Below the pieces are notes generated by a model. That model did not search any database. It had not been told where the DNA came from and worked only from the letters and a program-made list of their open reading frames with translations. Positions 12,351 to 40,640 of a DNA stretch of 64,000 nt are shown here, piece after piece (the first letter of the stretch is position 1; each line of letters opens with the position of its first letter). The DNA lies in the NCBI RefSeq assembly GCF_037975245.1, contig NC_092561.1, positions 9,731,001-9,795,000 on the forward strand. Reading direction: 5' to 3'. A program made the translations under genes and the position numbers. This DNA comes from Apostichopus japonicus. Taxonomy: Eukaryota; Echinodermata; Holothuroidea; Aspidochirotida; Stichopodidae.

Positions 12351-12661
12351 ACGATCTCAGCAGTGAATTTGTTGTATCTCTGTTGTATCTCATTTTTAAG
12401 ACGCAATGCCGTGGACAAACAGTCCACCGGTTCCTCCGTCCGTCCCCTCGATTATTAATCTTTTATCTCAGATGAATTTCTTTTCACAATAGATCGGAAA
12501 ACTAAACTCCTCCTCACCGAAAATATCTCTTCTTATATATAGCGGGGGTTTAATCTCCCGAAAGTTCTTTTCCAGGAATCCTGACGGAGTAACATCGAGA
12601 ATCATCCATGTCTCGAAGATACGACTGACAGTTCAATGAACGTACAATGAATATAGTAGTT

Positions 12662-15332: not shown

Positions 15333-15339
15333 TATTTAC

Positions 15340-18300
15340 ATTGTGACAACCCAAGTCTTGAAAATAACTAAACAATTAGCAAAAGGCCAGCCAAATTTGC
15401 TCTAACCAAAACAACTGCTTTAACTGGAAGCTATAGTATCTCTCCCTTAATGTTTAATGATCATACCATAGATGTTAATAAGGTTAAAAGCTTAAATCAA
15501 ATTTTCTTCAAACCTAGCTGGCATGGATTTATCGCTACTGAAGTTTGGCATTGTACTCAGATATTTCCAAAATATTGGATTGCCACAAAATAATTGTTTA
15601 CATACAATGATGAAGCACATCATTTAAAGTACTCTTCCAATCAAACAAATGCTACAGCAGCATGTTGAGCAAGGAAGTCAAATCGATTAAAGAAGAAAAG
15701 ACAGAAATAAGATCTTGCAGATAAAAATAATACTGCATCAGCAACACAACAAATATAGCAGAAACATCACACCCTAGCCCTTAATCAAACCAATACCCAC
15801 CATTCCCCTACAGCCACAATTTCTTATACCTGCCCCCTCATATGCAATAGGAAAATGAGAACTGATAATAGATGAGATAAGACTGCTTCGTTGATACTTA
15901 CTGTAGATAAGCAAGACTTTTAAGATATTGTTTTATCCCAATCACCACTAGCAGCTACTTTGTTATGTTGTCCATACTTACCATTTATTCACAGTGGTAA
16001 TCAAATATGTCGCAAATAAAATCACACAACTACAAGAAATACCTCAAGGCAAGCCAAGTTTGTTTTGAGCAACAAAATCAAAATTGTGTTTCAGCTGTAC
16101 TCTTTGACTTGTAATTGTGTATTTTGGTTTGGGTTTTCACTGATCTGACTCTAAGATATGGCACATACTCAGTACATGGTGAGTTGGACTAGGCTTGGTT
16201 TTATACCAAGTGGACGTGCCCTGTTATATGTTACTCAAGACAATAAATATTGTATTAAAAGTAAAGTATATGAACATTGAAATGGTAGGTTGGAATATCT
16301 CCAAAGATGGCTTGCCTGCATGGAGGCAATGTTACTGAATTGTTTTGATAGCACTCCTCCAAACCAACCAATGTCACAGCATGTTAGGCAAGAAATGATA
16401 GCTAAATAGGAGAAGAACAGAGAATTTAAAAATAAATTACAGATAAAAACAACTATAACAGCAAGAACAATTGCAACAATATTAGAAAAACACGACAACA
16501 TATTAATTGCAACATATTAATAGCACCATACTAATCAAGTTAACTTTAAATGGCTAATTTACAAAGATAATTAACAGTTCAGTGAAAACTCTTCCTGCAT
16601 GATTTTCCTGAAATGGTACAAATGGAATATAGTATAATTGCCACCAAACCAGAAATTCCTCTTCGAATTCACAGCCACATGATTGGAGCAATGTCAGTCG
16701 GGATTAAATGCCATGATTGCTTGACTGCATGGACTATCCACGCGAATATCATTTCTATAGCATTTCTCCCTTACACAGATTACATGTGTAAATAAATAAG
16801 CATAAATGCTAGCCTTCACAAATCCATGCATATACCCACAACATTAATACCCTGATTCTTTGTAGAAGAATCATCGAACATGCGCATAAACCACAGGATG
16901 ATGTCTGTTAATATCAATCATATCATACAAAGTCCTTAATTAGTTGCAAAGTTGCTAGAACTTTTAAGTTAACTTATTTTTAAATTGTTTTGTTGAATAG
17001 GCAGCCAGTAGACTAGGGATTTCAAGGTATCACTAATGTGGCAAACTTTAGATGCGTGGAAATCAACTGAGAAGCACCTTCCATAAGTCTGCTACCTTTC
17101 CATGGGACACAGCAGCAAGACCTACAGTAGCTTACACCCATGTCATGAAAGTATTATTCTAACCGAGCTACTTCACCAGTTATTGAATGAACCACTTTGA
17201 TCATGCTGCAAGTCCCATTGGACATAGGAGTAATGTATATTGCCAGAATGCTGAGTCTGTAATTAAACTGTGAACAGGACATTACCCTGCTTTGTCAAGT
17301 CTAAATATTCTATTGGTTCTTGTGAGGCACAATCCATGGCTTGCACAATGGCAGACTGACATGAGAATAATCCATATTCACATTCTCAGCCTGGAACTGT
17401 CTGTATACAACTCCTTCACTCCGCCTGCCATCTCCGAGAGTTTCTTCATCTGCAAGACTTGGTTGGAGACAGTTTTCCTGGCAGATGTGCAAGCAAAGGT
17501 AGATGCTGGCCGGCCCTGTCAAATACCGAGTTTCCTGCAAAAAGCAAATCAATATGCGCGAATTATGCCAAAATCATGCAGAGAAAATGTAGGTAATGGT
17601 TCTAAAGTACAAATGTAATCTTGTAATAAACCGTAATGGCAGCAACATCATCTTTGTAGGTTACATTAGTATCCAATGTTAACCTTTTATTGTAGAGACT
17701 ACAAGTAAAATACTTAATAAACATTAATGCTTACTAAGAAGGGCAAAAACTTAATTACCTTCATATGTTATGCTTAATATTTCCTTGTTTATAGAAGAAG
17801 AAAAAATTCATACCAATGTTTTTTAGTAGATCATAAACTTTATAGTCATTTAGCTATAAAATAATCATTCTTTATCCCAATGAATTTGAGAATTTAAACC
17901 TTTGAAAATGAACCATTAAAATTTTTCGCCAAGACATCATCAACTATACTCTTTTAGCTCTTAAATAAATTTAAATCTCTCAGGACAGACTATGTTGGCT
18001 CTGCCCTATCGATCAACAGGCCCCTTCGTAGTAACCACCCTTTCATAATGTTTCCATGTCGATTACCTCAGTGCATATTTGGAACAACATTATTCACCAT
18101 TGATATGTACTTTTTCAGATTAATGAGACATATACATATTAATTATACAACACAACGTTACACTGACTTAACAAAGGCAATCTATGGACCATAATTGATG
18201 AATTACAGTTTGACTTGGCCATGGTGAAATGGCCATACCAATATTTAAATGGGTAGTCACAGCAAGAGACTACTGTATAAAAACGACAGCAAGGTGAATT

Positions 18301-19580: not shown

Positions 19581-19708
19581 TGTATGTCAAGAAGTCTAAT
19601 GAAAAGGCGGAAAAAAGCGAATATGGAATAAATAAAATATCTTCCATATCCATGCCCATTCCCAATAATTCCCAATAACCAATTCTATCTACAAAGATCG
19701 GTTGCGCC

Positions 19709-20364
19709 ATGGGTAGCCAAGCCTCTCCGGAAATCTGTGATATCGTCATGCATAGACTGGAAAACCAGATTTTACCGACAGATAATAAAATCTTAAAATG
19801 GCTCCGCTCTAGAGATGAAATTCTATTGCTTTACGACGGTTCACCTCAGGAACTTGAACAACTAGTAAACAGGTTGAATGAAATTCACCGCTTCTTAAAG
19901 TTTACGGTAGAAATATTACACACCGAGGTAACATACCTAGATTTGAAAATCTTCAAAGGTCCAAGGTTTGAAACCAATGGGCTATTAGACACCAAAGTCT
20001 ACACCAAACCCACGGAAACCTTCCAATACCTCGACAGAAACTCTGCACACCCACTTGCCACTTTTAAAGGCTTCATTAAAGGGGAAGTCTTACGATACGC
20101 ACGTCTATGTAACAATGAGACTGATGTCTTACAGAAATAGAATGCGTTCACAGAGAAACTGGTACTCCGTAACTATAAGAAAGAGGATATTGCCTCAGCC
20201 ACGAAAGGTATAAAATTTGAAAACCGTGGGCAATACCTCACTACCAAACATTAACAAAAGGAACCACCAATGGTGTTCAAGCTTACCTATACACCCCATA
20301 TCAAAACCACGCATTTGAAAAATGAACTTTTGAAACATTGGCACTTAATCTCGCAACACGCGGA
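19709..20364 (+). pseudogene. Penelope-like reverse transcriptase, central block
   Basis: An open frame of 143 codons (19709-20140) contains M-G-S-Q-A-S-P-E-I-C-D, the R-D-E-I-L-L-L segment where family members usually have an RxxDDIF-type catalytic motif, L-N-E-I-H-R-F-L-K-F-T-x-E, Y-L-D-L-K and the Penelope hallmark Y-L-D-R-N-S-A-H-P. After a stop the homology continues in other phases to 20364, where the inner hAT-like element interrupts the codon for an Asp after H-L-I-S-Q-H-A. Confidence 0.8.
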
Positions 20365-22440: not shown

Positions 22441-22458
22441 TTGTAATGGTCGTACACC

Positions 22459-22467
22459 GTATATATG

Positions 22468-22515
<48 letters not shown>

Positions 22516-22532
22516 CATATATATATATATAC
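22459..22532. repeat. (TA)n microsatellite at the left border of triplication unit 1
   Basis: An interrupted TA tract marks the point where homology to units 2 and 3 begins. The corresponding tracts are at about 28015-28041 and 33698-33770. Confidence 0.85.
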
Positions 22533-22602
22533 TGCTCATGCGCACAAGTGCAGTACCAGTAAACTTGTAAGGCGGTTTGGTTGTTGGTCACTGACGATCG
22601 AT

Positions 22603-22609
22603 TGTAAAG
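22603..22609 (+). promoter_or_regulatory. mutated TATA box of peptide gene copy 1
   Basis: The position that reads TATAAAG in copies 2 and 3 reads TGTAAAG here, preceded by a small insertion (GACGATCGATTG versus GACGATTA). The upstream inverted CCAAT motif is also changed (GTTGG instead of ATTGG). Confidence 0.6.
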
Positions 22610-22722
22610 AGCTATACAGGAATGCATCACATCATTGTATCTGAAAACATCGAACTGTCAACAAGAACAAAAGTATTTTCTATTTCACTCAACCCAATAT
22701 TTCGGGGAAAAAAAAGCTTACA

Positions 22723-24008
22723 ATGGCCGCTAAGTTTGTGCTGTATATTTTAACTACCTCTTATTGCTCATAAAAAAATCGAGTTTATCATTGTAGGTGA
22801 GTAAATATATTTATTTGTGTATGTAAAATCCTTCGTTTTGTTCAAAGCCACGACACTTGGAATTGGGGGAATCATGGCTACTAATGCTTTATAAAGCTTG
22901 ATATCCTGCGGGCGTGCATGGTGCAGCCATAGACGGCATTTCGTGCACGTGGTATGTCTTCTGCCCCAACCCCACCCCACCCATCTGAAACAAGTGTCGG
23001 AGACCATGGCCAAATTATGTCATACAATGACAATATGCCCGCAAGCTAATGTCATGTAATTTCACCCGTTTCTTGTTAATCGGCATTTAAAGGGGTATGC
23101 CGGTGGCTGAAGTAGATTGTTTAAATAGTTGCTGGAATTCTTGTTGTATTTTTTGGTCAAACATTATATCATCGTATATGGTTTTGGGGCAAAGTTATTG
23201 TTCAACTGTTGTGGTATATTGTAAATGCATTTAGCGACAGCATAGTCCACGTTGTCTTCATGGCACTTGCAGCTGTAAACGTTTTGGTTTTGTTTAAGAT
23301 ATATTTAACAGATTAGAGGGAAATGATAATTCTGTAGAGAAAGTTGCACTGTAATGAAATTCCGAATACTGCAGAGAAAATGAACAGAAAGGTAGACTTT
23401 CTAAAAAAGTTGATTTTAAGTCCTCTCAAACAGTACTTGAAGGTAGTCACCTAAGAACTACCCCGTATGTGTGAATTGTATGCAACAAGGCAAAGCTCTA
23501 CAGAGTTAGAACATAATAATATTTTGGATTCTCGGCACCAGCACATAATAATATTTTGGATTCTCGGCACCAGCACACAATCTGAGTAGAAGCTGTGATA
23601 TAAAAAAGCCTCAGTCCTGCCATTTTATGAAAAACTTCGGACGAAAACCTGCTATGTTTTACTTTCGGCCTTGGGAACAAATGGTTTACATGACGTTTTT
23701 CGACTGACAGTGGCGAATATTGATCTCTTTAGGAGAATTGTTGCCTTGTGTTTCTATGTAATATCGTTTTAATATGAACTTTTAATCCATCAAATGGAGC
23801 TATTATAACGTTGACATGAATATTACTTCTTTAAGGGCTCAACCTCCGTATTCTGTTCCTCCTGGTGGCATTACTGGTTGCTATGATGATGATCGGACTG
23901 GTCTCTTGCGAAGACGAAGACGAGGACAATTTTGAGATGTTCGCACGTAGAGGGAAGTGTTGTCCCGCAGACGATTGTCAGGAGTGGTGTGCCTGCTGCC
24001 GCGACTGA
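22723..24008 (+). pseudogene. cysteine-rich secreted peptide gene, copy 1 (intact exon 2, defective expression signals)
   Basis: Exon 1 would be 22723-22729 (seven bases from ATG) and exon 2 is 23836-24008, the same layout as copies 2 and 3. Exon 2 is intact and encodes the same peptide as copy 2: hydrophobic signal segment, acidic pro-region, Arg-Arg, then CC-x4-C-x3-C-x1-CC. The donor after exon 1 is CTAAGT instead of GTAAGT. A new strong donor TAG|GTGAGT appears at 22797 where the other copies have GATGAGT, but using it would leave an in-frame stop after the ATG. With the altered TATA box this points to a silenced copy. An in-frame TAA just before exon 2 shows splicing is required. Confidence 0.7.
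23836..24008 (+). CDS. cysteine-rich peptide copy 1, exon 2
   Basis: The acceptor is 'TTCTTTAAG|GG'. It carries 57 codons including TGA, encoding the rest of the signal peptide, Glu/Asp-rich spacer, dibasic site and six-cysteine peptide. It differs from copy 2 by one synonymous base only. Confidence 0.75.
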
Positions 24009-24114
24009 TTTCCAAGATTGCAATGGTAAAATTGCACCTTAATGTTTCACCATTTCGTAATATAGCGTTTGAATATTTTGCACCATTTTCGTATTTTTTA
24101 CAAGCTTTTTAGTT

Positions 24115-24120
24115 AATAAA
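24115..24120 (+). terminator. polyadenylation signal, peptide copy 1
   Basis: AATAAA lies 107 bp after the stop codon and is conserved in all three copies. Confidence 0.75.
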
Positions 24121-24436
24121 CAAAAAAGCGGGCATATATGGCGTAGACGTGTATATATAGTACGAGTGTAACAGCATGACTACGAGTACAAGTAGAAGTT
24201 TCTTTTGATTACAGTACAAACATACGACCCCCAAGCACAGATATTAATACATATATAGAAGCATACATATCAAAGCTGCTGACAAACAACGGGCTTTGCA
24301 GCGGATTTGAAGGTCACTCGCGCCATGAACAGCGGATAGGGTTACTTCGTCGTAGTAACGAGGTTGATATGAAATCCTGATCTTATCGTCACAATATCTT
24401 TCATTTCACCCGATACACACAGAGAACACAGTAAAC

Positions 24437-24682
24437 ATCTTTTTAAGTTTTGTACCAGCGTAAAAACTGGATCGTGCTATAAATCAGTACCAAGTGCTAT
24501 TAGGATGACAGTCAAAATATGATATACGATATGTGTAATCCCAACAAATCCAGTTTGATTGATTTGTCGGCATCAAATATAATCCTCGGTTTTTACATAT
24601 TAACCTAACAGCACTTGCTAACGATTTATCGTATTTATCAGCACGATCCAGTTTTTACTGTGGTACCATTTTTTTAAAAGAT
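24437..24682. mobile_element. foldback MITE-like element in unit 1
   Basis: The outer ~75 bp on each side are inverted copies: left 'GTACCAGCGTAAAAACTGG..CGTGCT', right the complement of 'GTACCACAGTAAAAACTGG..CGTGCTGATAAAT', continuing to 'CAAGTGCT[AG]TTAGG'. The ~246-bp element recurs at the same place in units 2 and 3, so it predates the triplication. The target duplication is unresolved. Confidence 0.7.
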
Positions 24683-24949
24683 TTACGGTAGTTATTGTAA
24701 TTTCTCTGTGAATCGGTTGTCCATTTTCACATATAGAAACACTTGATACACCAGACTAGCTCGAATGTTTTGAGCAAAATTTACATTAGTTGAAATGAAT
24801 TACAACTCACGAATATTTAGACGCTGCTTACACTGTTGTTCTTACTTTTTGAAAATTAAGTATCCTTGCATGTTCTCAGATGTAATTACAATCTTACGTT
24901 AGGCCCTTAACTAGATACAAAACCCAGCCATCTATAGATTGCTCACCAT

Positions 24950-25215
24950 GATAATTTTGAATAGACCGAAATGTAGGGGAGACGGATAAACATAAATGTT
25001 TGGGCCCCTGGGGAGCAGGTACTCCAAGGTGGAGGGGCACCAACAATTATATATACAGGGGCACTAATAATTAAAAGAGGGGCACAATACTCACGTAGTG
25101 TTATACTTGTGAAGTTTTTGTCCACAGGATGGTGGAAAAAATTAAGGGTGTGATGGGGTGGAAGAAAAATATTCTAAAAGTGGAGGAGGCAAGCCCCTGG
25201 GCCCAGCCTGGCTAC
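24950..25215. repeat. GC-rich transposon-like block, present in all three units
   Basis: This block has 'GGGCCCCTGGGGAGCAGG', repeats of 'GAGGGGCAC' and ends 'CCCAGCCTGGCTACAGGACT'. It recurs near 30610-30877 and 36370-36615. It resembles a decayed non-autonomous element but the ends are not clear. Confidence 0.4.
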
Positions 25216-26486
25216 AGGACTATACTGGGAAGGGTTTAATATTCAAATGGAGCCTAATAACCACCTTAAGCAAATACTCACTAATTGACACAGACTGATA
25301 TACACTGCACAGTCATTTTGAAGTAAAACGTTTCTTGGCAATGTCAGTCTCAAAAGCGAGTGAAGCTCAGCGAAAGATTTTCGAAAATTGCTGCATTTTT
25401 TTTTAACTGAAAGGTACCTCACAGTAATAAAACAGCCAAGATGCCATTAGAAAATAGATTAAAACACACTCATATACCATCTGCAAAACGATATTGGATA
25501 GAACTTCCCAAAATAACTTCTCTGTACTTTCTGACTAATTTCATTGGAAGTTATCAGACTGTCCAAATGAAAACTGGTATACATACTTGCAAAATAAAGT
25601 CAGAGTGGAAAAAGTCTCTAAAATATCCAACCTCCCCCATCCCCCAATTAAATGGTTATAGACTTTATTTTAAAAATATGTCGCATAACAAGGATTGACA
25701 TGCTGTTTCTATATTTTGTTTACAATGTGCATGCCTTTATTGAAGAATATAAAAGTTACAATGGAACAAAAGGCACCATCATAGATGAAAAGCCTCTAAA
25801 CGTGTATTGCAGCATTTTAGTAGTCTGCCACGATACATTAGTTTAGATAACCATTACTCAAGTTGATTTCTACTTTCCTATCCTAGCAATTGGATATTGC
25901 CTAGGCCTATAGGTGCTACTGTAATTTTAATATATACTAGCAGTACATATCGAGTAGCAAAAAACAAAGTTTGTTTTTTTTAAATAAAGAACATATTAAA
26001 GATTCCTTTTCGTTTTCCATGACGCATACATATACCCTTAGAAGTGGCTCACAGTTCTGTGTATTCAATAAGTTTATTGTTTTAAGAATTTCTCACAATC
26101 TGGAAAATCAACCGCGCACTTCATTGCCTAACGTTTAGTTTCTAGGTAAAATAGTGTGTAGGTTGATGCTTTTGGGTGAGCTGTTCGTCTTCAAATTGCT
26201 GCAAGCGACAAGCCAGAAGTAGCTTCTATGTGTTCAAGTTCTGTGGTCTTAAGCAGTAATGATCCGCTGGAGAGCGATCTTGTTTCTCCGCGTGAATGGC
26301 AAGGCCAACGTGACAATAAATGATGTCTACTCCAAGAAAACAATCAGTGCATCATTTTCATAGATGTGATATACGTTACAAGGTATTTAGCGCACTCTGC
26401 TTTAACATCTGTGGTTACGCATTATCGAACTACGACAAGCCGAGGACAAACGTATCACATGAGCTTTAACGCTGCACAGATGATTG

Positions 26487-26552
26487 CTTCGAGCACGCAT
26501 ATCGAGCACGCATATCGAGCACGCATATCGAGCACGCATATCGAGCACGCAT
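26487..26552. repeat. 13-bp VNTR in unit 1 (5 units)
   Basis: Five copies of CGAGCACGCATAT. The same locus has 7 copies in unit 2 and 11 in unit 3. Confidence 0.9.
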
Positions 26553-28091
26553 ATAGTAGACAGCCGTTACAGCCCCGCTGGTTTGCCGATACGCGTGACA
26601 TTAATTTCTTAGAATGTTTTTTTACCCAACTAATTTTTTTCACCTCTCAACAGATTTTGTCTTTTTCAACCCACAGTCGCAAGTTTCCTGGACTTTCTCT
26701 CGCGCCAGTAAGAAGCTTCTCCAACAAACCACAATCGTTAGCAGCCGGCTAGTTGCATGTTATGCTAGAAAAACACCATCGACGTAAATTGAAATATCAT
26801 ATTAATTAATAAAATAGTATTTCCTTTTCTGTTCTCATGCAGAATCTGATGTATAGAGTAAACCTTGTTTTCCATGTTGTATGTTATCCGTAAATATGCA
26901 TGTTAACAACGGGTATTTTACAAATAAGATGGTTTTGTCAATCGTAAAGAACTGGTGAACATGTTTAACTTCTTGTAGATTTATTAAGTCACTATGCAAA
27001 TTTCGTCTTAGAAATTTAAACCACTACTGATAGGTGGAGGGAAAACAATATCATAATTCTCTTTGCTAATTTTACAATTAGTGAAAAATAGAATTTGAAA
27101 TAAACAAGCAAATCTCTTTAATTTTATTATTTTCCTTTTCTGAATCCCTAGTCATTTTATTTCCTTCTGTGCCACCCTTCCTCCTTCCCAGTTATTGAAA
27201 ACGTCAACAGTGCCTCCTTACGACAATAATATTTCAAAGTTCCACTTTTTGTTTATGGAAATTACCCTTTTCATAATTTACAAATGTGACGTTTTTTTGT
27301 GAAATTAAAAGAAAATATTAAAACGTTTAGGTGTTGAAGAAAAAAAATCAAATACTGGATTTACGGTGACCAGAATGATGAGAGGGTTCAATTTTTCGCG
27401 ACTTGTTGAGGTTATTTATCGGTTTGCTTTTCCAAATCAAAGTAAAATATCCCACTCACTTTTGAAGCTCCCCCCCACCACCCACCTTTCCTCAGACTGA
27501 ACCCTCTTCCGCCGACTCACTATCGAATTTTTATTTTATTTTCCTGGGCATTTTCTCAAACCAATATACAGAATTTTAGCAGATTTGAGGCAATTTTTAA
27601 CTTATAAGTTACACAACAAATGGGAGCTGAAAATGGTTCAGTCCCCCCAAAGAACATCGATTTCAACCATTTCATGTTGTTCAGTCCGATGCAATGTTGC
27701 ATGCTAGCCTACGTTTCTATCAAAATCAAAATGTAAATTTTACCATGTTTTACTCCATAATGGTTCAGCGATGAGATCACAGTTGCAACCAATTGCGACC
27801 ACACACACTTCTAACCCACTGAAAGGATCAGCTGTCATAAAGAAGTAACAACAGTAAATCTGCACTTTGTGGATTGCTCATATATGGGCATAAACATATG
27901 CATCATTTTGGCCGGTTGCGTCACAGAAACACGTTGGTTGATTGGCTATGATATTACAGTAGCCAATCAGCAATACATAGGCTATACAATACATCGTCTA
28001 CCTCTATCTCTCCCTATATATATATATATATATATATATATTGATCATGCGCACAAGTGCAGTACCAGCAAACTTGTATGGCGATTTGGTT

Positions 28092-28114
28092 ATTGGTCAC
28101 TGACGATTATAAAG
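28092..28114 (+). promoter_or_regulatory. core promoter of peptide gene copy 2 (ATTGG and TATAAAG)
   Basis: ATTGG, an inverted CCAAT box, at 28092-28096 and TATAAAG at 28108-28114 lie 113-135 bp before the ATG. The arrangement is identical in copy 3 and altered in copy 1. Confidence 0.65.
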
Positions 28115-28226
28115 AGCTATACGGGAATGCATCACATCATTGGATCTGAAAACATCGAACTGTCAACAAGAACAAAAATATTTTCTATTTCACTCAACCC
28201 AATATTTCGGGGGAAAAAAGCTAACA

Positions 28227-29669
28227 ATGGCCGGTAAGTTTGTGCTGTATATTTTAACTATTCTCTCCTTGCTCATAAAAAAAAATCAAATTTATCATTG
28301 TAGATGAGTAAATATATGTATTTCTGTATGTAAAATCCTTCGTTTTGTTCAAAGCCACGACACTTTGAAATGGGGAATCATAGCTACTAATGCTTGATAA
28401 AGCTATCATTTTCCTGCGGGCGTGCATGGTGCAGCCATAGACGGCATTTCGTGCATGTGGTATGTCTTCTGACCCAACCCCACCTCTGCCATCTAAAACA
28501 AATGTCGGAGGCCATAGCCAAATTATGACTTTAAAGTCATACAATGACAATATGCCCGCAAGCTAATGTCATGTAATTTCACCCGTTTCTTGTTAATCGG
28601 CATTTAAAGGGTCATTCCGGTGGCTGAAGTAGATTGTTTAAATAGTTGCTGGAATTCTTGTTGTATTTTTTGGTCAAACATTATATCATCGTATATGGTT
28701 TTGGGGCAAAGTTATTGTTCAACTGTTGTGGTATATGGTAAATGCATTTAGCGACAGCAGAGTCCACAATGTCTGCATGGAAATTGCAGCTGAAAACGTT
28801 TTGGTTTTGTCTAAGATATATTTAACAGATTAGAGGGAAATGATAGTTCTGTAGAGAAAGTTGCACTATAATGAAATTCCGAATACTGCAAATAAAATGA
28901 ACAGAAAGGTAGACTTTCTAAATTTTTATCACATTTAAATGATAATTATCATAATGATTATGATTGAAAGGCATCGCTTTTGAAGAATATTTCGTTACAT
29001 TTCAGTTTAACATATGTCGACTTAGGTCAAAGAAAGAAAAAACATCCCTCGTCCCCTCTTTCATCTTTTTCTCTCTCTCTCTGTTTTGCAAAACGCTTTA
29101 AAGTTAATTTTTAGTCCTCTCAAACATTACTTGAAGGTAGTCACCTAAGAACTACCCCGTATGTGTGGATTGTATGCAACAAGGCAAAGCTCTACAGAGT
29201 TAGAAAATAATAATATTTTGGATTCTCGGCGCCAGCACACAATCTGAGTAGAGACCTTGATATAAAAGAGCCTCAGTCCAACCATTTTATGAAGACTTCG
29301 GACGAAAACCTGCTATGTTTTACTTTCGGCCTTGGGAACAAATGATTTACATGACGTTTTTCAACTGACAGTGGCAAATATTGATCTCTTTAGGAGAATT
29401 GTTGCCTTGTGTTTCTATGTAATATCGTTTTAATATGAACTTTTAATCCATCAAATGGAGCTATTATAACGTTGACATGAATATTACTTCTTTAAGGGCT
29501 CAACCTCCGTATTCTTTTCCTCCTGGTGGCATTACTGGTTGCTATGATGATGATCGGACTGGTCTCTTGCGAAGACGAAGACGAGGACAATTTTGAGATG
29601 TTCGCACGTAGAGGGAAGTGTTGTCCCGCAGACGATTGTCAGGAGTGGTGTGCCTGCTGCCGCGACTGA
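28227..29669 (+). CDS. cysteine-rich secreted peptide precursor, copy 2 (two exons)
   Basis: Exon 1 coding is 28227-28233 ('AACAATGGCCG|GTAAGT', phase 1) and exon 2 is 29497-29669, giving 59 aa. The order is a start with strong context, a hydrophobic signal segment at about residues 5-25 ending Ser-Cys, an alternating Glu/Asp pro-region, Arg-Arg, then an 18-residue peptide with six cysteines spaced CC-x4-C-x3-C-x1-CC. This spacing and precursor plan match the short (M-1) branch of framework III conopeptides; homology is not implied, and antimicrobial or hormone-like peptides are alternatives. Mature residues between cysteines are acidic. The product should be secreted and disulfide-bonded. 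No known echinoderm family is recognised. Confidence 0.75.
29497..29669 (+). CDS. cysteine-rich peptide copy 2, exon 2
   Basis: The acceptor 'ACTTCTTTAAG|GG' completes a Gly codon split by the intron. The intron is 1,263 bp, the same length as in copy 3. The stop TGA follows two residues after the last cysteine pair. Confidence 0.75.
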
Positions 29670-29775
29670 TTTCCAAGATTGCAATGGTAAAGTTGCACCT
29701 TAATGTTTCACCATTTCGTAATATAGCGTTTGAATATTTTGCACAATTTTCATATTTTTTAGAAGCTTTTTAGTT

Positions 29776-29781
29776 AATAAA
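29776..29781 (+). terminator. polyadenylation signal, peptide copy 2
   Basis: AATAAA is 107 bp after the stop codon, in a conserved context. Confidence 0.75.
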
Positions 29782-30097
29782 CAAAAAAGCGGGCATATAT
29801 GACGTAGACGTGTATATATAGTACGAGTGTAACAGCATGACTACGAGTACAAGTAGAAGTTTCTTTTGATTACAGTACAAACATACGACCCCCAAGCACA
29901 GAAATTAATACATACCTAAAAGGATACATATCAAAGCTACTGACAAACAACAGGCTTTGCAGCGGATTTGAAGGTTACTCGCGCCATGAACAGCGGATAG
30001 GGTTACTTCGTCGTAGTAACGAGGTTGATACGAAATCCTGATCTTATCGTCACAATATCTTTCATTTCACCCGATACACACAGAGAACACAATATAC

Positions 30098-30342
30098 ATC
30101 TTTTAAGTTTTGTACCAGCGTAAAAACTGGATCGTGCTATAAATCAGTACCAAGTGCTATTAGGATGACAGTCAAAATATGATATTCGATATGTGTCATC
30201 CCAACAAATCCAGTTTGATTGATTTATCGGCATCAAATATAATCCTCGGTTTTTACATATTAACCTAACAGCACTTGCTAACGATTTATCGTATTTATCA
30301 GCACGATCCAGTTTTTACTGTGGTACCATTTTTTTAAAAGAT
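30098..30342. mobile_element. foldback MITE-like element in unit 2
   Basis: Same inverted-repeat element and position as 24437-24682 in unit 1. Confidence 0.7.
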
Positions 30343-32143
30343 TTACGGTAGTTATTGTAATTTCTCTGTGAATCGGTTGTCCATTTTCACATATAGAAAC
30401 ACTTGATACACCAGACTAGCTCGAATGTTTTGAGCAAAATTTACATTAGTTGAAATGAATTACAACTCACGAATATTTAGACGCTGCTTACACTGTTGTT
30501 CTTACTTTTTGAAAAATTAAGTATCCTTGCATGTTCTCAGATGTAATTACAATCTTACGTTAGGCCCTTAACTAGATACAAAACCCAGCCATCTATAGAT
30601 TGCTCACCATGATAATTTTGAATAGACCGAAATGTAGGGGAGACGGATATACAGAAATGTTTGGGCCCCTGGGGAGCAGGTACTCCAAGTTGGAGGGGCA
30701 CCAACAATTATATATACAGGGGCACTAATAATTAAAAGAGGGGCACAATACTCACGTACTGTTATATTTGTGAAGTTTTTGTCCACAGGATGGTGGAAAA
30801 AATTAAGGGTGTGATGGGGTGGAAGAAAAATATTCTAAAAGTGGAGGAGGCAAGCCCCTGTGCCCAGCCTGGCTACAGGACTATACTGGGAAGGGATTAA
30901 TATTCAAATGGAGCCTAATAACCACCTTAAGCAAATACTCACTAATTGACACAGACTGATATACACTGCACAGTCATTTTGAAGTAAAACGTTTCTTGGC
31001 AATGTCAGTCTCAAAAGCGAGTGAAGCTCAGCGAAAGATTTTCGAAAATTGCTGCATTTTTTTTTAACTGAAAGGTACCTCACAGTAATAAAACAGCCAA
31101 GATGCCATTAGAAAATAGGTTAAAACACACTCATATACCATCTGCAAAACGATATTGGATAGAACTTCCCAAAATAACTTCTCTGTACTTTCTGACTAAT
31201 TTCATTGGAAGTTATCAGACTGTCCAAGTGAAAACTGGTATACATACTTGCAAAATAAAGTCAGAGTGGAAAAAGTCTCTAAAATATCCAACCTCCCCCA
31301 TCCCCCAATTAAATGGTTATAGACTTTATTTTAAAAATATGTCGCATAACAAGGATTGACATGCTGTTTCTATATTTTGTTTACAATGTGCATGCCTTTA
31401 TTGAAGAATATAAAAGTTACAATGGAACAAAAGGCACCATCATAGATGAAAAGCCTCTAAACGTGTATTGCAGCATTTTAGTAGTCTGCCACGATACATT
31501 AGTTTAGATAACCATTACTCAAGTTGATTTCTACTTTCCTATCCTAGCAATTGGATATTGCCTAGGCCTATAGGTGCTACTGTAATTTTAATATATACTA
31601 GCAGTACATATCGAGTAGCAAAAAACAAAGTTTGTTTTTTAAATAAAGAACATATTAAAGATTCCTTTTCGTTTTCCATGACGCATACATATACCCTTAG
31701 AAGTGGCTCACAGTTCTGTGTATTCAATAAGTTTGTTTTAAGAATTTCTCACAATCTTTAAAATCAACCGCGCACTTCATTGCCTAACGTTTAGATTCTA
31801 GGTAAAATAGTGTGTAGGTTGATGCTTTTGGGTGAGCTGTTCGTCTTCAAATTGCTGCAAGCGACAAGCCAGAAGTAGCTTCTATGTGTTCAAGTTCAGT
31901 GGTCTTAAGCAGTAATGATCCGCTGGAGAGCGATCTTGTTTCTCCGCGTGAATGGCAAGGCCAACGTGACAATAAATGATGTCTACTCCAAGAAAACAAC
32001 CAGTGCATCATTTTCATAGATGTGATATACGTTACAAGGTATTTAGCGCACTCTGCATTAACATCTGTGGTTACGCATCATCGAACTACGACAAGCCGAG
32101 GACAAACGTATCACATGAGCTTTAACGCTGCACAGATGATTGC

Positions 32144-32235
32144 TTCGAGCACGCATATCGAGCACGCATATCGAGCACGCATATCGAGCACGCATATCGA
32201 GCACGCATATCGAGCACGCATATCGAGCACGCATA
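32144..32235. repeat. 13-bp VNTR in unit 2 (7 units)
   Basis: Seven copies of CGAGCACGCATAT at the locus that has five copies in unit 1. Confidence 0.9.
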
Positions 32236-33712
32236 TAGTAGACAGCCGTTACAGCCCCGCTGGTTTGCCGATACGCGTGACATTAATTTCTTAGAATGTT
32301 TTTTTACCCAACTAATTTTTTTCACCTCTCAACAGATTTTGTCTTTTTCAACCCACAGTCGCAAGTTTCCTGGACTTTCTCTCGCGCCAGTAAGAAGCTT
32401 CTCCAACAAACCACAATCGTTAGCAGCCGGCTAGTTGCATGTTATGCTAGAAAAACACCATCGACGTAAATTGAAATATCACATTAATTAATAAAAAAGT
32501 ATTTCTTTTTCTGTTCTCATGCAGAATCTGATGTATAGAGTAAACCTTGTTTTCCATATTGTATGTTATCCGTAAATATGCATGTTAACAACGGGTATTT
32601 TACAAATAAGATGGTTTTGTCAATCGTAAAGAACTGGTGAACATGTTTAACTGGTTGTAGATGTATTAAGTCACTATGCAAATTTCGTCTTAGAAATTTA
32701 AACCACTACAGATATGTGGAGGGAAAACAATATCATAATTCTCTTTGCTAATTTTACAATTAGTGAAAAATAGAATTTGAAATAAACATGCAAATCTCTT
32801 TAATTTTATTATTTTTCTTTTCTGAATTCCTAGTCATTTTATTTCCTTCTGTGCCACCCTTCCTCCTTCCCAGTTATTGAAAACGTCAACAGTGCCTCCT
32901 TACGGCAATAATATTTCAAAGTTCCACTTTTTGTTTATGGAAATTACCCTTTTCATAATTTACAAATGTGACGTTTTTTGTGAAATTAAAAGAAACTATT
33001 AAAACGTTTAAGTGTTGAAGAAAAAAAAAATCAAATACTGGATTTACGGTGACCAGAATGATGAGAGGGTCCAATTTTTCGCGACTTGTTGAGGTTATTT
33101 ATCGGTTTGCTTTTCCAAATCAAAGTAAAATATCCCACTAACTTTTGAAGCTCCCCCCCACCACCCCCACCTTTCCTCAGACTGAACCCTCTTCCGCCGA
33201 CTCACTATCGAATTTTTATTTTATTTTCCTGGGCATTTTCTCAAACCAATATACAGAATTTTAGCAGATTTGAGGCAATTTTTAACTTATAAGTTACACA
33301 ACAAATGGGAGCTGAAAATGGTTCAGTCCCCCCAAAGAACATCGATTTCAACCATTTCATGTTGTTCAGTCCGATGCAAGGTTGCATGCTAGCCTACGTT
33401 TCTATCAAAATCCAAATGTAAATTTTACCATGTTTTACTCCATAATGGTTCAGCGAAGAGATCACAGTTGCAACCAGTTGCGAACCCACACGATTCCAAC
33501 CAACTAACAGGATCAGTTGTCATAAAAAATAATATCAGTAGATCTGTACTTTGCGGATTGCCCATATATGGGCATAAACATATGCATCATTTTGGCCGGT
33601 TGCGTCACAGAAACACGTTGGTTGATTGGCTATGATATTACAGTAGCCAATCAGCAATACATAGGCTATATAATACATCGTCTACCTTTACCTCTCCCTA
33701 TCTATCTATATA

Positions 33713-33771
<59 letters not shown>

Positions 33772-33840
33772 TGCTCATGCGCACTAGTGCAGTCAGACCA
33801 GCAAACTTGTATGGCGATTTGGTTATTGGTCACTGACGAT

Positions 33841-33847
33841 TATAAAG
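33841..33847 (+). promoter_or_regulatory. TATA box of peptide gene copy 3
   Basis: TATAAAG in the same context as copy 2, with ATTGG 16 bp upstream and the ATG 112 bp downstream of its end. Confidence 0.65.
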
Positions 33848-33958
33848 AGCTATACGGGAATGCATCACATCATTGTATCTGAAAACATCGAACTGTCAAC
33901 AAGAACAAAAATATTTTCTATTTCACTCAACCCAATATTTCGGGAAAAAAAGCTAACA

Positions 33959-35404
33959 ATGGCCGGTAAGTTTGTGCTGTATATTTTAACTATTCTCATA
34001 TTGTTCATAAAAATATTCAAGTTTATTATTGTAGATGAGTAAATATATTTATTTCTGTATGTAAAATCCTTCGTTTTGTTCAAAGCCACGACACTTTGAA
34101 TTGGGGGAAATCATAGCTACTAATGCTTTATAAAGCTATCATATTCCTGCGGGCGTGCATGGTGCAGCCATAGACGGCATTTCATGCACGTTGGTATGAC
34201 TTCTGCCCCAAACCCACCCCACCCATCTAAAACAAGTGTCGGAGTCCATGGCCAAATGGTGACTTTAAAGTCATACAATGACAAACATGCCTGTAAGCTA
34301 ATGTCAAAACATCCGTTTCTTGTTAATCGACATTTAAAGGGGTATTCCGGCGGCTGAAGTAGATTGCTTAATGAGTTGCTGGAATTCTTTTTGCATTTTT
34401 TGTCAAACATTACATCATCATATATGGTTTTGTGGCGAAGTTATTGTTCAACTGTTGTGGTATATCGTAAATGCATCTAACAACAGCATAGTCCACGATG
34501 TCATCATGGCACTTGCAGCTGTAAACGTTTGGTTTTGTTAGAAATATATTTAACAGATTAGAGGGAAATGATAATTCTGTAGAGAAAGTTGCACTATAAT
34601 GAAATTCCGAATGCTGCAGCGAAAATGAACAGCTGGGTAGACTTTCTAAATTTTATCACATTTAAATGATAATTATCATAATGATTATGATAGAAAGGTG
34701 TAGCTTTTGAAGAACATTTTGTTACATTTCAGTTTAACATATCTCGACTTAGGCCAAAGAAAAAAAACATCCCTCGTCCCCTCTCTCACCCTTCTCTCTC
34801 TCTGTGTTTTTTGTAAAACGTTTCAAAGGTGATTTTAAGTCCTCTCAAACATTACTTGAAGGGAATCACCTAAGAACTACCCCGTATGTGTGGATTGTAT
34901 GCAACAAGGCAAAGCTCTACAGAGTAAGAACATAATAATATTTTGGATTCTCGGCACCAGCACACAATCTGAGTAAAAAATGTGATATAAAATAGCCTCA
35001 GTCCTCCCATTTTATGAAAGACTTCGGACGAAAACCTGCTATGTTTTACTTTCGGCCTTGGGAACAAATTATTATCATGACGTTTTTCAACTGACAGTGG
35101 CAAATATCGATTTCGTTAAGATAATTGTTGCCTTGTGTTTCTATGTAATATCGTTTCAATATGAAATTTGAATATGATCCATCAAATGGAGCTATTATAA
35201 CGTTGACATGAATATTGCTTTCTTTAAGGGCTCAACCTCCGTATTCTGTTCCTCCTGGTGGCATTGCTGGTTGCTATGACGATGATCGGACTGGTCTCTT
35301 GCGAAGACGAAGACGAGGACAATTTTGAGATGTTCGCACGTAGAGGGTATTGTTGTCCAGCAAGACGTTGTTTCTCTTCGTGTCCCTGCTGCCTCTCCGC
35401 CTGA
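33959..35404 (+). CDS. cysteine-rich secreted peptide precursor, copy 3 (diverged mature peptide)
   Basis: Exon 1 coding is 33959-33965 and exon 2 is 35229-35404, giving 60 aa. The signal/pro-region differs from copy 2 by few bases (one Met to Thr, otherwise silent). The mature part keeps all six cysteines in CC-x4-C-x3-C-x1-CC with the same codon at each cysteine (TGT TGT, TGT, TGT, TGC TGC), yet about ten of the twelve other residues differ. Acidic residues in the first loop become two arginines and Gln-Glu-Trp in the second becomes Phe-Ser-Ser. Donor, acceptor, TATA box and poly(A) signal are intact, so it is probably expressed. Rapid change restricted to the mature peptide is typical of venom and antimicrobial peptide families. 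Confidence 0.75.
35229..35404 (+). CDS. cysteine-rich peptide copy 3, exon 2
   Basis: The acceptor is 'TTTCTTTAAG|GG'. It is one codon longer than in copies 1 and 2, at the C-terminus before TGA. Confidence 0.75.
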
Positions 35405-35510
35405 TTTCCAAGATCGCGAGGGTAAAATTGCACCTTAATGTTTCACCATTTCGTAATATAGCGTTTGAATATTTTGCACAATTTTCATATTTTTTAGAAG
35501 CTTTTTAGTT

Positions 35511-35516
35511 AATAAA
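35511..35516 (+). terminator. polyadenylation signal, peptide copy 3
   Basis: AATAAA is 107 bp after the stop codon, at the same distance as in the other two copies. Confidence 0.75.
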
Positions 35517-35841
35517 CAAAATGGCGGGCATATATGACGCAGACGTGTATATATAGTACGAGTGTAACAGCATGAGTACGAGTACAAGTAGAATTTTCTT
35601 TTGATTACAGTACAAACATACGACCCCCAAGCACAGAATTAATACATATATAGAAGCATACATATCAAAGCTACTGACAAACAACATGCTTTGAAGCGGA
35701 TTTGAATTGGTTACTCGGGCCATGAATCGCGGAAAGGGTTCCTTCGTTATAGTAACGAGGTTAAGACGAATTCCTGATCTAATCGTCACAATTTCTTTCA
35801 TTTCACCCGATACACACAGAGAACACATAAACAATTGTATA

Positions 35842-36089
35842 CATCTTTCAAGTTTTGTACCAGCTTAAAAACTGGATCGTGCTATAAATCAGTACCAAGT
35901 GCATGCTATTAGGATGACAGAAAAAATATGACGATATGTGTAATCCCAACAAATCCAGTTTGATTGATTTGTCGGCATCAAACATAATCTTCGGTTTTTA
36001 CATATAAACCTAACAGCACTTGCTAACGATTTATCATATTTATCAGCACGATCAAGTTTTTACTGTGGTGCAATTTTTTTTAAAAAGAT
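35842..36089. mobile_element. foldback MITE-like element in unit 3
   Basis: A diverged copy of the inverted-repeat element at 24437-24682, at the equivalent position. Confidence 0.65.
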
Positions 36090-36796
36090 TTACGGTAGTT
36101 ATTGTAATTTCTCTGTGAATCGGTTGTTCATTTTTACATATAGAAAGACTTGATACACCAGACTAGCTCGAATGTTGTGAGCAAAATTAACATTAGCTGA
36201 AATGAATTACAACTCACGAATATTTAGAAGTTGCTTACATTGTTGTTCTTACTTTTTGAAAAAAAAAGTATCCTCGCATGTTCCCAGATGTTTTGCAATC
36301 TTACGTTAGGCCCCTTAACTAGATACAAAACCCAGCCCATCTAGATTGCTTACCATGTTAATTTGAATAGACCGAAATTTAGGGGAGACGGCTATACAGA
36401 AATGTGTGGGCCCTGAGGAGCAGGTACTCCGAGTTGGTAGGGCACCAACAATTATGGCGGGGCAATAATAATTAAAAGAGGGGCACAATACTCACGTAAT
36501 GTTATACTTGTGAAGTTTTTGTGCACAGGATGGTGGGAAAAATTAAGAGTGGGGTGGAAGAACAATATTCTAATTGTGGAGGGGGCAAGCCCCTGGGTCC
36601 AGCCTGGCTACAGGACTACTGGAAAGGGATTAAACTGGAGCCTAATGACCACCTTAGACAAATGCTCACTATAACTGACAAATACTGATTTACACTGCAA
36701 ACTCACGTTGAGGTTTAACGTTTCTTGGCAATATAAGCGAAAGATCTTCGAAAATTGGTGCATACTTTTTATTAACTGAAAGGTACATCACAGTAA

Positions 36797-37117
36797 TGTA
36801 TGTATGTATGTATGTATGTATGTATGTATGTATGTATGTATGTATGTATGTATGTATGTATGTATGTATGTATGTATGTATGTATGTATGTATGTATGTA
36901 TGTATGTATGTATGTATGTATGTATGTATGTATGTATGTATGTATGTATGTATGTATGTATGTATGTATGTATGTATGTATGTATGTATGTATGTATGTA
37001 TGTATGTATGTATGTATGTATGTATGTATGTATGTATGTATGTATGTATGTATGTATGTATGTATGTATGTATGTATGTATGTATGTATGTATGTATGTA
37101 TGTATGTATGTATGTAT
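36797..37117. repeat. (TGTA)n microsatellite, about 80 units, SINE tail expansion
   Basis: An essentially perfect tetranucleotide tract of about 320 bp lies directly at the 3' tail of the adjoining minus-strand SINE. All three frames of both strands are open, which produces false open frames made of Met-Tyr-Val-Cys or Ile-His-Thr-Tyr repeats. Confidence 0.97.
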
Positions 37118-37355
37118 ATGTGATCTTCCCGCAAGCAGGAACTCGCGAAAGAAGCCATGGAGGCTTGTAGACTCGCAAGCTGACCGAAGCCAATCTCTCG
37201 GCACACATCCATTTAACGTCCATGTCGGGAAGTTGTTATTGAACAACACCCTTGCCAGACGACACACATTGCTGTCGGCGGGGAATCGAACCGGGGATCT
37301 CATGACTGGGAGACGCCGGCGTTAACCACTAGGCTATACACACCGCCTATACACT
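37118..37355 (-). mobile_element. tRNA-derived SINE inserted in triplication unit 3
   Basis: On the minus strand the head contains an RNA polymerase III A box TAGCCTAGTGG (37326-37336) and a B box GGTTCGATTCC (37282-37292) at tRNA spacing, followed by a body and a TACA-repeat tail. Units 1 and 2 lack it and read 'CACAGTAATAAAACAGCC', so the empty site is known. 'GTAAT' is present on both sides of the insertion as a short target duplication. A second copy is at 45236-45475. Confidence 0.85.
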
Positions 37356-38365
37356 CCGCCTCCGTAATGAAAACAGCCAAGCTGCCATTAGAAAATAGGT
37401 TAAAACACACTCATATACCATCTGCAAAACGATTTTGGATAGAACTTCCCAAAATAATTTCTCTGTACTTCCTGACTAATTTCAATGGAAGTTATCAGAC
37501 TGTCCAAGTGAAAACTGGTATACATACTTGCAAAATAAAGTCAGAGTGGAAAAAGTCTCTAAAATATCCAACCTCTCCCCATCCCCCAATTAAATGGTTA
37601 GAGACTTAACTTTAAAAATATGTCGCTTAACAATTATTGACATGCTGTTTCTATTTTTGTTTACAATGTGCATGCCTTTATTGAAGAATATAAAATTAAC
37701 AATGGAACGAGGCACCATCATAGATGTAAGGTGATCTTAACGTGTATTGCAGCATTTTAGTAGTCTACCACGGTACATTAGTTTAGATAATCATGTTTTA
37801 ATCACCATTACTCAAGTTAAATTTCTAATTCCCTATCCTAGCAAGTTGATATTGCATAGACAAAGGTGTCACTGTAGTTTTAACACAATTAACGATTACT
37901 TATATACTATAGCAGTACAGATCGAATAGCAAAAACAAAGTTCGTTTCTTAAGTAAAGAACATGTTAAAGTTTCCTTTTCGTTTTCGTTCTCACAATCTG
38001 AAAAATCAACTGGGCACTACATTGCCTAACGTTTAGATTCTACATAAAAAAGCAGTGTAGGTTGATGCTTTTAGGTGAGCTGTTCGTCTTCAAATTGCTG
38101 CAAGCGACAAGCCAGACGTAGCTTCTATATGATCAAGTTCTGTGGTCTCAAGCAGTAATTTTCCCGAATGATTGAATCCCTACCGGAGAGCGATCTCGTT
38201 CCTCCGCGTGAATGGCAAGGCCAACGTGCATCATTTTCATAGATGTGATATACGTTACAAGGTATTTAGCGCACTCTGCATTAACATCTGTTTACGCATT
38301 ATCGAACTACGACAAGGCGAGGACAAACGTATCACATAAGCGTTAACTCTGCACTGATAATTACT

Positions 38366-38516
38366 TCTAGCACGCATATCGAGCACGCCTATCGAGCACG
38401 CATATCGAGCATGCATATCGAGCACGCATATCGAGCACGCATATTGAGCACGCATATCGAGCACGCATATCGAGCACGCATATCGAGCACGCATATTGAG
38501 CACGCTTATAATAGAC
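38366..38516. repeat. 13-bp VNTR in unit 3 (11 units)
   Basis: Eleven copies of the CGAGCACGCATAT-type unit, several with substitutions (CGCCTAT, CATGCAT, TGAGCAC). Confidence 0.9.
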
Positions 38517-39430
38517 AGCTGTTACAACCTCGCTAGTTTGCCGATACGCGTGACATTAATTTTTTAGAATGTTTTTTGACCCAACTAATTTTTTCCCCTC
38601 TCATCAGATTTTGTCTTTTTCAACCCACAGTCGCAAGTTTCCTGGACTTTCTCTCTCGCCAGTAAGAAGCTTCTCCAACAAACCACAGTCGTTAGAAGCC
38701 GGCTAGTTGCATGTTATGCTAGAAAAACACACTCGAAGTAAATTGAAATATCATATTAATTAATAACAAAAGTATTTCTTTTTCTGTTCTCATGCAGAAT
38801 CTGATGTGTAGAGTAAACCGTGTTTTCCATATTGTATGTTATCCGTAAATATGCATGTTAACAACGGGTATTTTACAAATAAGATGGTTTTGTCAATCGT
38901 ACAGAACTGGTGAACATGTTTAAATGTTTGTAGATTTGTTAAGTCACTATGCAAATTTCGTCTTAGAAATTTAAACCACTACAGATAGGTGGAGGAAAAA
39001 CAATATCATAATTCTCTTTGCTAATTTTACAAGTAATGTAAAAAAGAATTTGAAATAAACAAGCAAATCTCTTTATTTTTTTTTATATACTTTTCTGAAT
39101 TCCTAGTCATTTTGTTTCCTTCTGTGCCACCCCTCCTCCTTCACAGTAAGTGAAAACGTCAACAGTGCCTCTCTACGTCAATAATATTTCAAAGTTCATT
39201 GAAATAACCTTCTCATAATTTACAAATGTGTAGTTTTTTTGTGAAATTAAAAGAAAATATTAAAAGGTTTAAGTGTTGATAAATTTTTGAGGTTATTTAT
39301 CGGTTTGCTTTTCCAAATCAAAGTAAAATATCCCACTCACTGTTGAAGTTCTCCCCCCCCCCCTCTCACTGAACCCTCCTCCGACTCACTATCGATTTTT
39401 ATTTGCCTGGGCATTTTCTCAAACCAATAT

Positions 39431-40640
39431 ATTTCTCCAATATATTTTCATATTCTACCACTACCACAAATTAAGTACTCACTGCTATATTGTATCGTCT
39501 AATTTGACCCTTTTCTGTTTATCTTAAAGTTATTTTAAGGAAAAATGAACTGAACAGGAAGAAACACACAAGCAAAGAAACAAATAAATGCAAACATATT
39601 CCATTATACAATATAAATTATCTATATCAAAAATATACAAATCGTATTTCATCTGTATTCTCTGTTAGTTACAATAATCAAATGTCGCCACGAACGACCG
39701 TCGGACAATATATATATATATATATATTGATATATATATATATATATATATTGATATGTATGTATGTAAGCAAACAACAGATTTACAGATCACATATTAG
39801 ATATTAGTTTAAAAGTTGACTTGTTCTAAAACAAATACTGTATTACAGCTGTTATCCCAACCTAGGTATTCCCTTTGAATTCTTTAGTTTTTGCTAGTGT
39901 TAATAATATATTTGTTGAATCTATTTCCCATTATCACATAATGCGGCAGTGGCGTGAGAAAAATATCGAGGAATGTGTGCGTGTAGAGAGGCACTGTCTC
40001 ACTACCTATCGTCAGTTGAGGTGGGGGGAGGGGAGGGGGTGAGGGGGCACGGCTCAGTCGGGGATTTTGTATTTGCAGCCAGGGAAAAAATTTGCTACTG
40101 GTGTTCATCCCACTCTTTTCAACTTCGCATATAAAAACAAGAGTATTTGCCAGTCCAACCTTCAAATTATAGACCTAATTTATAATCGAAGCATGAGGCA
40201 GATTGTACCATTTCCCGTCCTTTTTTCCGAGAGAGGACCCCTATACATATAACCGTACACTGAATTCGGCTTCAATGACCCAGGGCTTACACCCTTCTCT
40301 TATGAAATCCTTCATTTGCCTCTGACCCTTCCATAAAGGTTCATAGCCATACCTACATCGGTACGAATCAGCACGAATACTATACGGCAATAGTTATATT
40401 CTACTAAGTTAACAACTGGAATCATACCTCATCTTCATTTGCCTCGAAGACTTTAATGTACACATCCACTGTGACAAGGAAAACAACATATACCAAACAA
40501 ATATTGGTTGCTATTAGAGGACTAACACGTAATGTTACCACATTCGAATATTGGAATACGATCTATAAAACCTTAACTAAATAAGCCTATAGATACTAAT
40601 CTAAAACTTAAAGTCATAAAACGAATACGTATAAGAAGAC
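39431..40640. other. intergenic spacer before the CLCA gene
   Basis: AT-rich sequence with interrupted TA repeats at 39707-39766 and a G-rich tract at 40021-40050. No exon or named repeat was recognised. Confidence 0.5.

Follow-up and report, generated by a model that had tools for sequence, protein, structure and literature searches.

A five-copy locus of candidate secreted six-cysteine peptide genes in the sea cucumber Apostichopus japonicus

How does a sea cucumber come to carry a cluster of very small genes whose predicted products have the cysteine spacing of certain cone-snail peptides, and what might such products do? The question is raised by a 64-kb stretch of the Apostichopus japonicus genome (C1:9731001-9795000, here called the window; positions below are counted within it unless contig C1 is named). 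Our best explanation, which we hold at a probability of roughly one half, is that the genes form a five-gene, single-locus A. japonicus family of putative secreted, disulfide-rich defence peptides whose mature part has been diversified by selection and whose likeness to conopeptide framework III is convergent.

Gene anatomy and copies at the locus

Comparison of the 64-kb window with itself by blastn revealed three tandem units spanning 22457-39431, whose borders (22457-28000, 28001-33690 and 33691-39431) are cuts that we set for unit alignment. Each unit follows one gene plan, namely a (TA)n array, a TATA-like site 118-120 nt before the ATG, a seven-base coding exon, an intron, and a second exon in which the signal, pro and mature parts lie together, as they do in 5/5 copies found in the genome. 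The exon 1 ATG stands at 22723, 28227 and 33959 in units 1, 2 and 3, respectively; the predicted introns measure 1106, 1263 and 1263 nt, exon 2 comprises 57, 57 and 58 open codons, and the joined products have 59, 59 and 60 residues. These measurements agree with the initial annotation of the locus, which had proposed an exon of ATG plus four bases, an intron of ~1.1-1.26 kb and an exon of 57-58 codons, and which had also placed an AATAAA in every unit: the motif is present in 5/5 copies, and in the three units of the window it begins 107 nt past the final stop base, at 24115, 29776 and 35511. The features of the units, with the mature peptide types (A and B) treated below, are as follows.

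22457..28000, + strand: tandem unit 1, type A, probably silent (blastn self-comparison; edges set by us)
22468-22511, no strand: (TA)n array at the upstream edge of unit 1 (sequence inspection)
22603..22609, + strand: unit 1 TGTAAAG replacing the TATA box (120 nt before ATG)
22723..22729, + strand: unit 1 exon 1 coding part, ATG plus 4 nt, next dinucleotide not GT (alignment, donor inspection)
23836..24008, + strand: unit 1 exon 2 with predicted signal remainder, acidic pro-region, RR, mature A and stop (open frame, alignment)
23952..24005, + strand: unit 1 predicted mature peptide A, CC-x4-C-x3-C-x1-CC (alignment, pattern search)
24115..24120, + strand: unit 1 AATAAA (alignment)
28001..33690, + strand: tandem unit 2, type A (self-comparison and unit alignment)
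28015-28040, no strand: (TA)n array upstream of the unit 2 gene (sequence inspection)
28108..28114, + strand: unit 2 TATAAAG (119 nt before ATG)
28227..28233, + strand: unit 2 exon 1 coding part, followed by donor GTAAGT (alignment, donor inspection)
28234..29496, + strand: unit 2 predicted intron, 1263 nt, phase 1, GT-AG (alignment)
29497..29669, + strand: unit 2 exon 2 coding part with stop, whole precursor 59 aa (alignment)
29613..29666, + strand: unit 2 predicted mature peptide A, 18 aa, net -2 (alignment, charge computed)
29776..29781, + strand: unit 2 AATAAA (alignment)
33691..39431, + strand: tandem unit 3, type B (self-comparison and unit alignment)
33715-33770, no strand: (TA)n array upstream of the unit 3 gene (sequence inspection)
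33841..33847, + strand: unit 3 TATAAAG (118 nt before ATG)
33959..33965, + strand: unit 3 exon 1 coding part, followed by donor GTAAGT (alignment, donor inspection)
33966..35228, + strand: unit 3 predicted intron, 1263 nt, phase 1, GT-AG (alignment)
35229..35404, + strand: unit 3 exon 2 coding part with stop, whole precursor 60 aa (alignment)
35345..35401, + strand: unit 3 predicted mature peptide B, 19 aa, net +2 (alignment, charge computed)
35511..35516, + strand: unit 3 AATAAA (alignment)

Splice junctions and a TATA box had been claimed for all three units, and the claim stands for units 2 and 3 (GTAAGT, TATAAAG) but not for unit 1. There the donor position has no GT, and its first frame up to the stop offers no alternative GT in the needed phase and one GC; TGTAAAG takes the place of TATAAAG, and on these two grounds this copy is probably silent in the genome studied. 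The unit 1 intron, 157 nt below the length in units 2 and 3, is rearranged in one place. Were the intron retained in units 2 and 3, the exon 1 frame would run on for 26-27 hydrophobic residues (28227-28307 and 33959-34042), probably by chance.

Searches of the whole genome (671,581,487 bases in 35 contigs) with the A and the B protein, in which copy counts are lower bounds, agreed on five gene copies, all in one cluster on C1, with exon 2 starting at 9717268, 9722913, 9754836, 9760497 and 9766229. Such a search had been proposed in the initial annotation; its three tandem units are present, while its count of three misses two copies that lie ~32 and ~38 kb before unit 1, beyond the window, and one of its three is probably non-functional. 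Along C1 an A and a B copy are followed, after a gap, by two A copies and one B, giving three A and two B copies in all. Both upstream copies have the GT donor, TATAAAG and AATAAA, bringing donor and TATAAAG together in 4/5 copies. The B query gave one further match, on C19, at chance level (E 0.89), and a query made up of the promoter, exon 1 and half of the intron, searched to E 1e-5, was matched over its full length by the same five copies, along with three matches of 65-218 bases to one intron stretch. Mollusc DNA contamination was rejected, given five copies within one stretch of a 21.65-Mb contig and a separate A. japonicus database protein.

The predicted precursor runs from a hydrophobic N-terminus, with a mean 11-residue hydropathy that peaks at 3.1 in unit 2, through the acidic stretch EDEDEDNFEMFARR to GKCCPADDCQEWCACCRD in type A (units 1 and 2) or GYCCPARRCFSSCPCCLSA in type B (unit 3). 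Hydrophobic N-terminus, acidic stretch, RR and six cysteines are found in 5/5 copies, and the computed mature mass is ~2.0 kDa with a net charge of -2 for A and +2 for B. Provided that cleavage follows Arg-Arg and nothing else is altered, the computed [M+H]+ with three disulfides would be 1999.63 for A and 2020.74 for B. Exon 2 had been described as encoding a signal peptide, an acidic pro-region, Arg-Arg and CC-x4-C-x3-C-x1-CC, and in 3/3 units both the pattern and the frames uphold this. As a DNA pattern the cysteine spacing occurs nowhere else in the window. A chance open frame was rejected because the pattern appears in 0/100 shuffles and because the copies stand out among the 1430 open frames of at least 35 residues in a 94-kb region: ten of these combine a hydrophobic 12-mer with six following Cys within 25 residues, and the ten are the five copies plus five low-complexity frames. 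An AlphaFold model from a three-row alignment (mean pLDDT 64.7) contained a signal helix and was of low confidence elsewhere, with pLDDT 53-61, taken by tens of residues, from residue 21. The layout of a putative secreted precursor, apparently cleavable pro-region and Cys-rich mature part is that of echinoderm antimicrobial peptides.

Among 5.8 billion proteins, in a search that needs shared 5-residue words, we found one relative, the uncharacterised A. japonicus protein BSL78_29574 (59 aa). It is identical to the products of units 1 and 2 at 58/59 residues, differing at residue 20, where it pairs mature A with a variant seen here only beside B. It begins MAG, in agreement with the predicted exon join, although it is a deposited database protein and not a transcript; by its sequence it is a member of the same gene family. 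No mention of the gene tag was found in the literature searched, nor was a description of the family found among the listed matches for sea cucumber or echinoderm conotoxin-like, cysteine-rich or antimicrobial peptides, as judged from titles and abstract openings. A Pfam scan, whose filters drop most matches above E 0.1, gave none over the cut-off and, below it, only DUF4972 (residues 9-34) and DUF6476 (residues 5-25), with no toxin family. Against solved structures there were chance matches only (best E 0.72 for precursor A and 0.51 for pro plus mature A), and pro plus mature B had no match at E up to 10.

Two mature types on one cysteine scaffold

The copies encode two mature peptide types, A in three copies and B in two, a division absent from the initial annotation. 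In the five-copy alignment mature DNA is identical within each type (57/57 in 3/3 A pairs and 60/60 in the one B pair). Between A and B it matches at 39/57 positions with a 3-nt gap in all 6 pairs, over which signal plus pro is 95.7-98.3% and the intron 90.9-93.3% identical. The alignment of units 2 and 3 has 399 differences in 4982 ungapped columns, and no 57-column window diverges more than the mature part with its stop, which has 18 differences where the next separate window has 13; 18/57 mature sites differ versus 381/4925 in the rest of the unit (Fisher p 2e-7). Nei-Gojobori estimates for the same pair, with the alignment gap placed after the last Cys, gave dN 0.547 and dS 0.237 for the mature part, and dN 0.011 and dS 0.076 for signal plus pro, the latter a dN/dS of ~0.14 from three changes only (1 nonsynonymous, 2 synonymous). 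The six Cys codons differ at 0/18 nucleotides versus 18/36 in the other coding positions (p 1.3e-4), these tests assuming independent sites. As the cause of this pattern we prefer selection that diversified the loops and kept the scaffold constant, as inferred from the sequences.

Could the locus instead be recently expanded and non-functional or unexpressed, its apparent constraint reflecting only the youth of the duplicates? Noncoding segments of the five copies are 87.6-100% identical, depending on segment and pair, so frames could persist through youth; unit 1 is without GT donor and TATAAAG, and no relative was found outside the species. However, GT donor, TATAAAG, frame, stop and AATAAA are all kept in 4/5 copies, the 18 changes at 57 mature sites have spared every Cys-codon site and introduced no early stop, and the dN/dS of signal plus pro, for what three changes can tell, is low. 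We consider such a locus improbable.

More weight belongs to an account in which the mature divergence is old, or arose by replacement, while gene conversion homogenised the flanks with no accelerated substitution, a scenario compatible with the other readings considered here. Four informative sites within 33 nt of the signal region back four different groupings of the five copies, and BSL78_29574 joins the B-linked residue-20 variant to mature A; exchange between copies is thus likely, and gene conversion may have kept the flanks young. The mature part also has a raised dS, from the small numbers of 2.2 of 10.7 sites, which means that an old split with conversion of the flanks can mimic positive selection. 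On the other hand, 41/58 informative intron sites follow the A/B split, meaning that the flanks were not freely shuffled, and the six Cys codons correspond one by one, meaning that the mature tract is homologous. We regard this history as possible though doubtful.

Besides the raised dS, several further points weigh against diversification by selection in a family of defence peptides. All six pairwise comparisons reflect a single evolutionary event, the A/B split, and one of its changes, D-D/R-R, may amount to two one-base indels that offset each other and so inflate the substitution count. Within each type the mature peptide is invariant, so continuing arms-race change or hypervariability is not supported, and since the two B copies are 99.1% identical across the intron as well, the identity of mature B may merely reflect recent copying. 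Preserved Cys codons can follow from amino-acid constraint plus descent, as has been argued for conotoxins (PMC3823881; articles are cited here by identifier), and are therefore no separate proof of selection. Lastly, unit 1 is probably dead, and the negative charge of A contrasts with the cationic nature of the sea-urchin peptides.

Predicted processing and role

If selection on a secreted peptide is nevertheless the right reading, what we infer from sequence of expression, splicing, processing and function would be as follows. The transcript would join a two-codon first exon to a single exon with all remaining coding parts; the signal peptide would direct the precursor into the secretory pathway, where the acidic pro-region might shield the peptide or aid folding, and a dibasic-cutting protease would free an 18-19-residue peptide with three disulfides. 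Tandem duplication would have given rise to A and B, of opposite net charge on one cysteine scaffold, with selection altering the loops while the remaining gene parts stayed alike. Host defence, whether antimicrobial, otherwise directed at microbes, or deterrent, appears by analogy the likeliest role, because of the precursor plan, the tandem copies, the A/B divergence and the likeness in layout to strongylocin.

The genes might instead encode two isoforms of a secreted neuropeptide- or hormone-like signal released at Arg-Arg. Such a signalling peptide would also account for a dibasic site and a short mature peptide, and each type is DNA-identical between copies, as expected of a constrained ligand. 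Six cysteines within 14 residues, a C-terminus without an amidation signal and a single peptide per precursor argue against it, as do the opposite charges of the two types and a stronger loop divergence than ligands sharing a receptor would usually show. We think it about as improbable as a dead locus.

If the genes are expressed, the ~2.0 kDa peptides would be a new kind on the short list from sea cucumbers, far below the 5.6-5.8 kDa of strongylocins, and the locus would be a natural case for asking whether conotoxin-style evolution, with a fixed scaffold and changing loops, arises without venom. Holothuroidins are the only characterised sea cucumber antimicrobial peptides according to a 2025 review (PMC11767717), and A. 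japonicus has been ranked first among sea cucumbers in economic value (PMC10344927). Both peptides are short enough for direct synthesis and testing.

Other features were seen in and around the units. A tandem array of 13-nt period (ATCGAGCACGCAT in unit 1) sits at an equivalent spot in each unit (26412-26580, 32068-32236 and 38289-38457), with a copy number apparently unequal among units, and a long (ATGT)n array (36788-37110) lies at the insertion that lengthens unit 3, the equivalent place in units 1 and 2 being without it. Elsewhere in the window, 12602-15371 holds ~2.7 kb of short tandem repeats with open frames on both strands, minisatellite-like rather than gene-like, and 47265-48877 and 51196-56112 are further minisatellite-like blocks with long low-complexity open frames. 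A fragment at 19679-20140 weakly resembles reverse transcriptase, with an RVT_1 match at E 0.0041 that stays below the cut-off, and a 128-aa open frame of ordinary composition at 62869-63255, with no Pfam family over the cut-off, is perhaps a coding exon of a neighbouring gene.

Comparison with echinoderm and cone-snail families

The nearest comparison by host and layout is with strongylocins. EeStrongylocin 2, a sea-urchin antimicrobial peptide, has a signal, a 16-aa prosequence and a six-Cys mature peptide (PMC4805251), so that an echinoderm source, a signal peptide, a short prosequence and a six-Cys mature peptide are common to both. Mature strongylocins are, however, 5.6-5.8 kDa and cationic (PMC4805251), whereas the sea cucumber peptides are ~2.0 kDa and A is anionic. 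The Patiria peptide PpCrAMP was also considered and set aside; a review describes it as a beta-hairpin (PMC11767717). No strongylocin was among our protein-search matches, which depend on shared 5-residue words and involved no direct comparison. The sea-urchin SpTransformer (Sp185/333) genes encode a different, larger type of protein. Common to them and to the present locus are clustered small two-exon genes and segmental duplications edged by simple repeats; the repeats are GA there and (TA)n here, and a stretch of 57-60 nt accounts for the main diversity here. Families of this type have been put down to several processes, unequal crossing over and gene conversion among them (PMC8634487).

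With the M1 group of the conotoxin M superfamily (defined in PMC4278219 and PMC8230863) the peptides have in common the CC-C-C-CC framework, loops of 4-3-1 and a single residue between Cys 4 and 5. The initial annotation had assigned this spacing to the short branch of framework III, correctly, for the cysteine spacing of the M1 peptide mr3e as printed is identical (PMC4278219). In M1 peptides the disulfides connect 1-5, 2-4 and 3-6 (PMC8230863). The likeness extends to the layout of signal, pro-region, basic site and short Cys-rich mature part, and to the way in which conotoxins conserve their precursor and Cys codons while the mature loops diverge (PMC3823881, PMC3862624). Both the mr3e loop lengths and this evolutionary pattern would suit a predator-deterrent or toxin-like peptide acting on ion channels, functionally like an M1 conopeptide. 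Against such a role stand the occurrence of just two variants and a mature part without a usable model. To our knowledge, moreover, A. japonicus has no venom gland, and of the functions considered we find this one the least probable.

The genes themselves differ from those of cone snails. In the M superfamily a gene is split into three exons by two introns of more than 3 kb each, which roughly part signal, pro and mature regions (PMC3862624), whereas the sea cucumber genes have one predicted 1.1-1.3 kb intron after codon 2. Intron number varies among conotoxin superfamilies, with one in A and F and none in B1 and J (PMC7551347), so this difference bears on the M superfamily alone. Likeness to M-superfamily signals was not seen in the protein searches or Pfam scan, at 5-residue-word sensitivity and with no direct comparison to M signals, which points away from membership, and the Mu-conotoxin model (Pfam PF05374) had 0 matches over the cut-off in the genome and one below it, on C11, away from the cluster. 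Host, copy number (five) and number of mature variants (two) likewise set the family apart from conotoxins. Thus the peptides may work like an M1 peptide while failing to share the gene structure of the M superfamily.

Tentatively, one might go further and see here a holothurian peptide arsenal evolving in the manner of conotoxins, in which a conserved secretory precursor and a fixed Cys scaffold came by selection to carry a pair of oppositely charged peptides, an outcome reached separately from cone snails and with another gene architecture. That the family is lineage-specific and convergent with, rather than homologous to, conopeptides had already been suggested in the initial annotation, and as far as tested this is supported by the lone A. 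japonicus relative, the searches with Pfam and the Mu-conotoxin model, and the differing gene structure.

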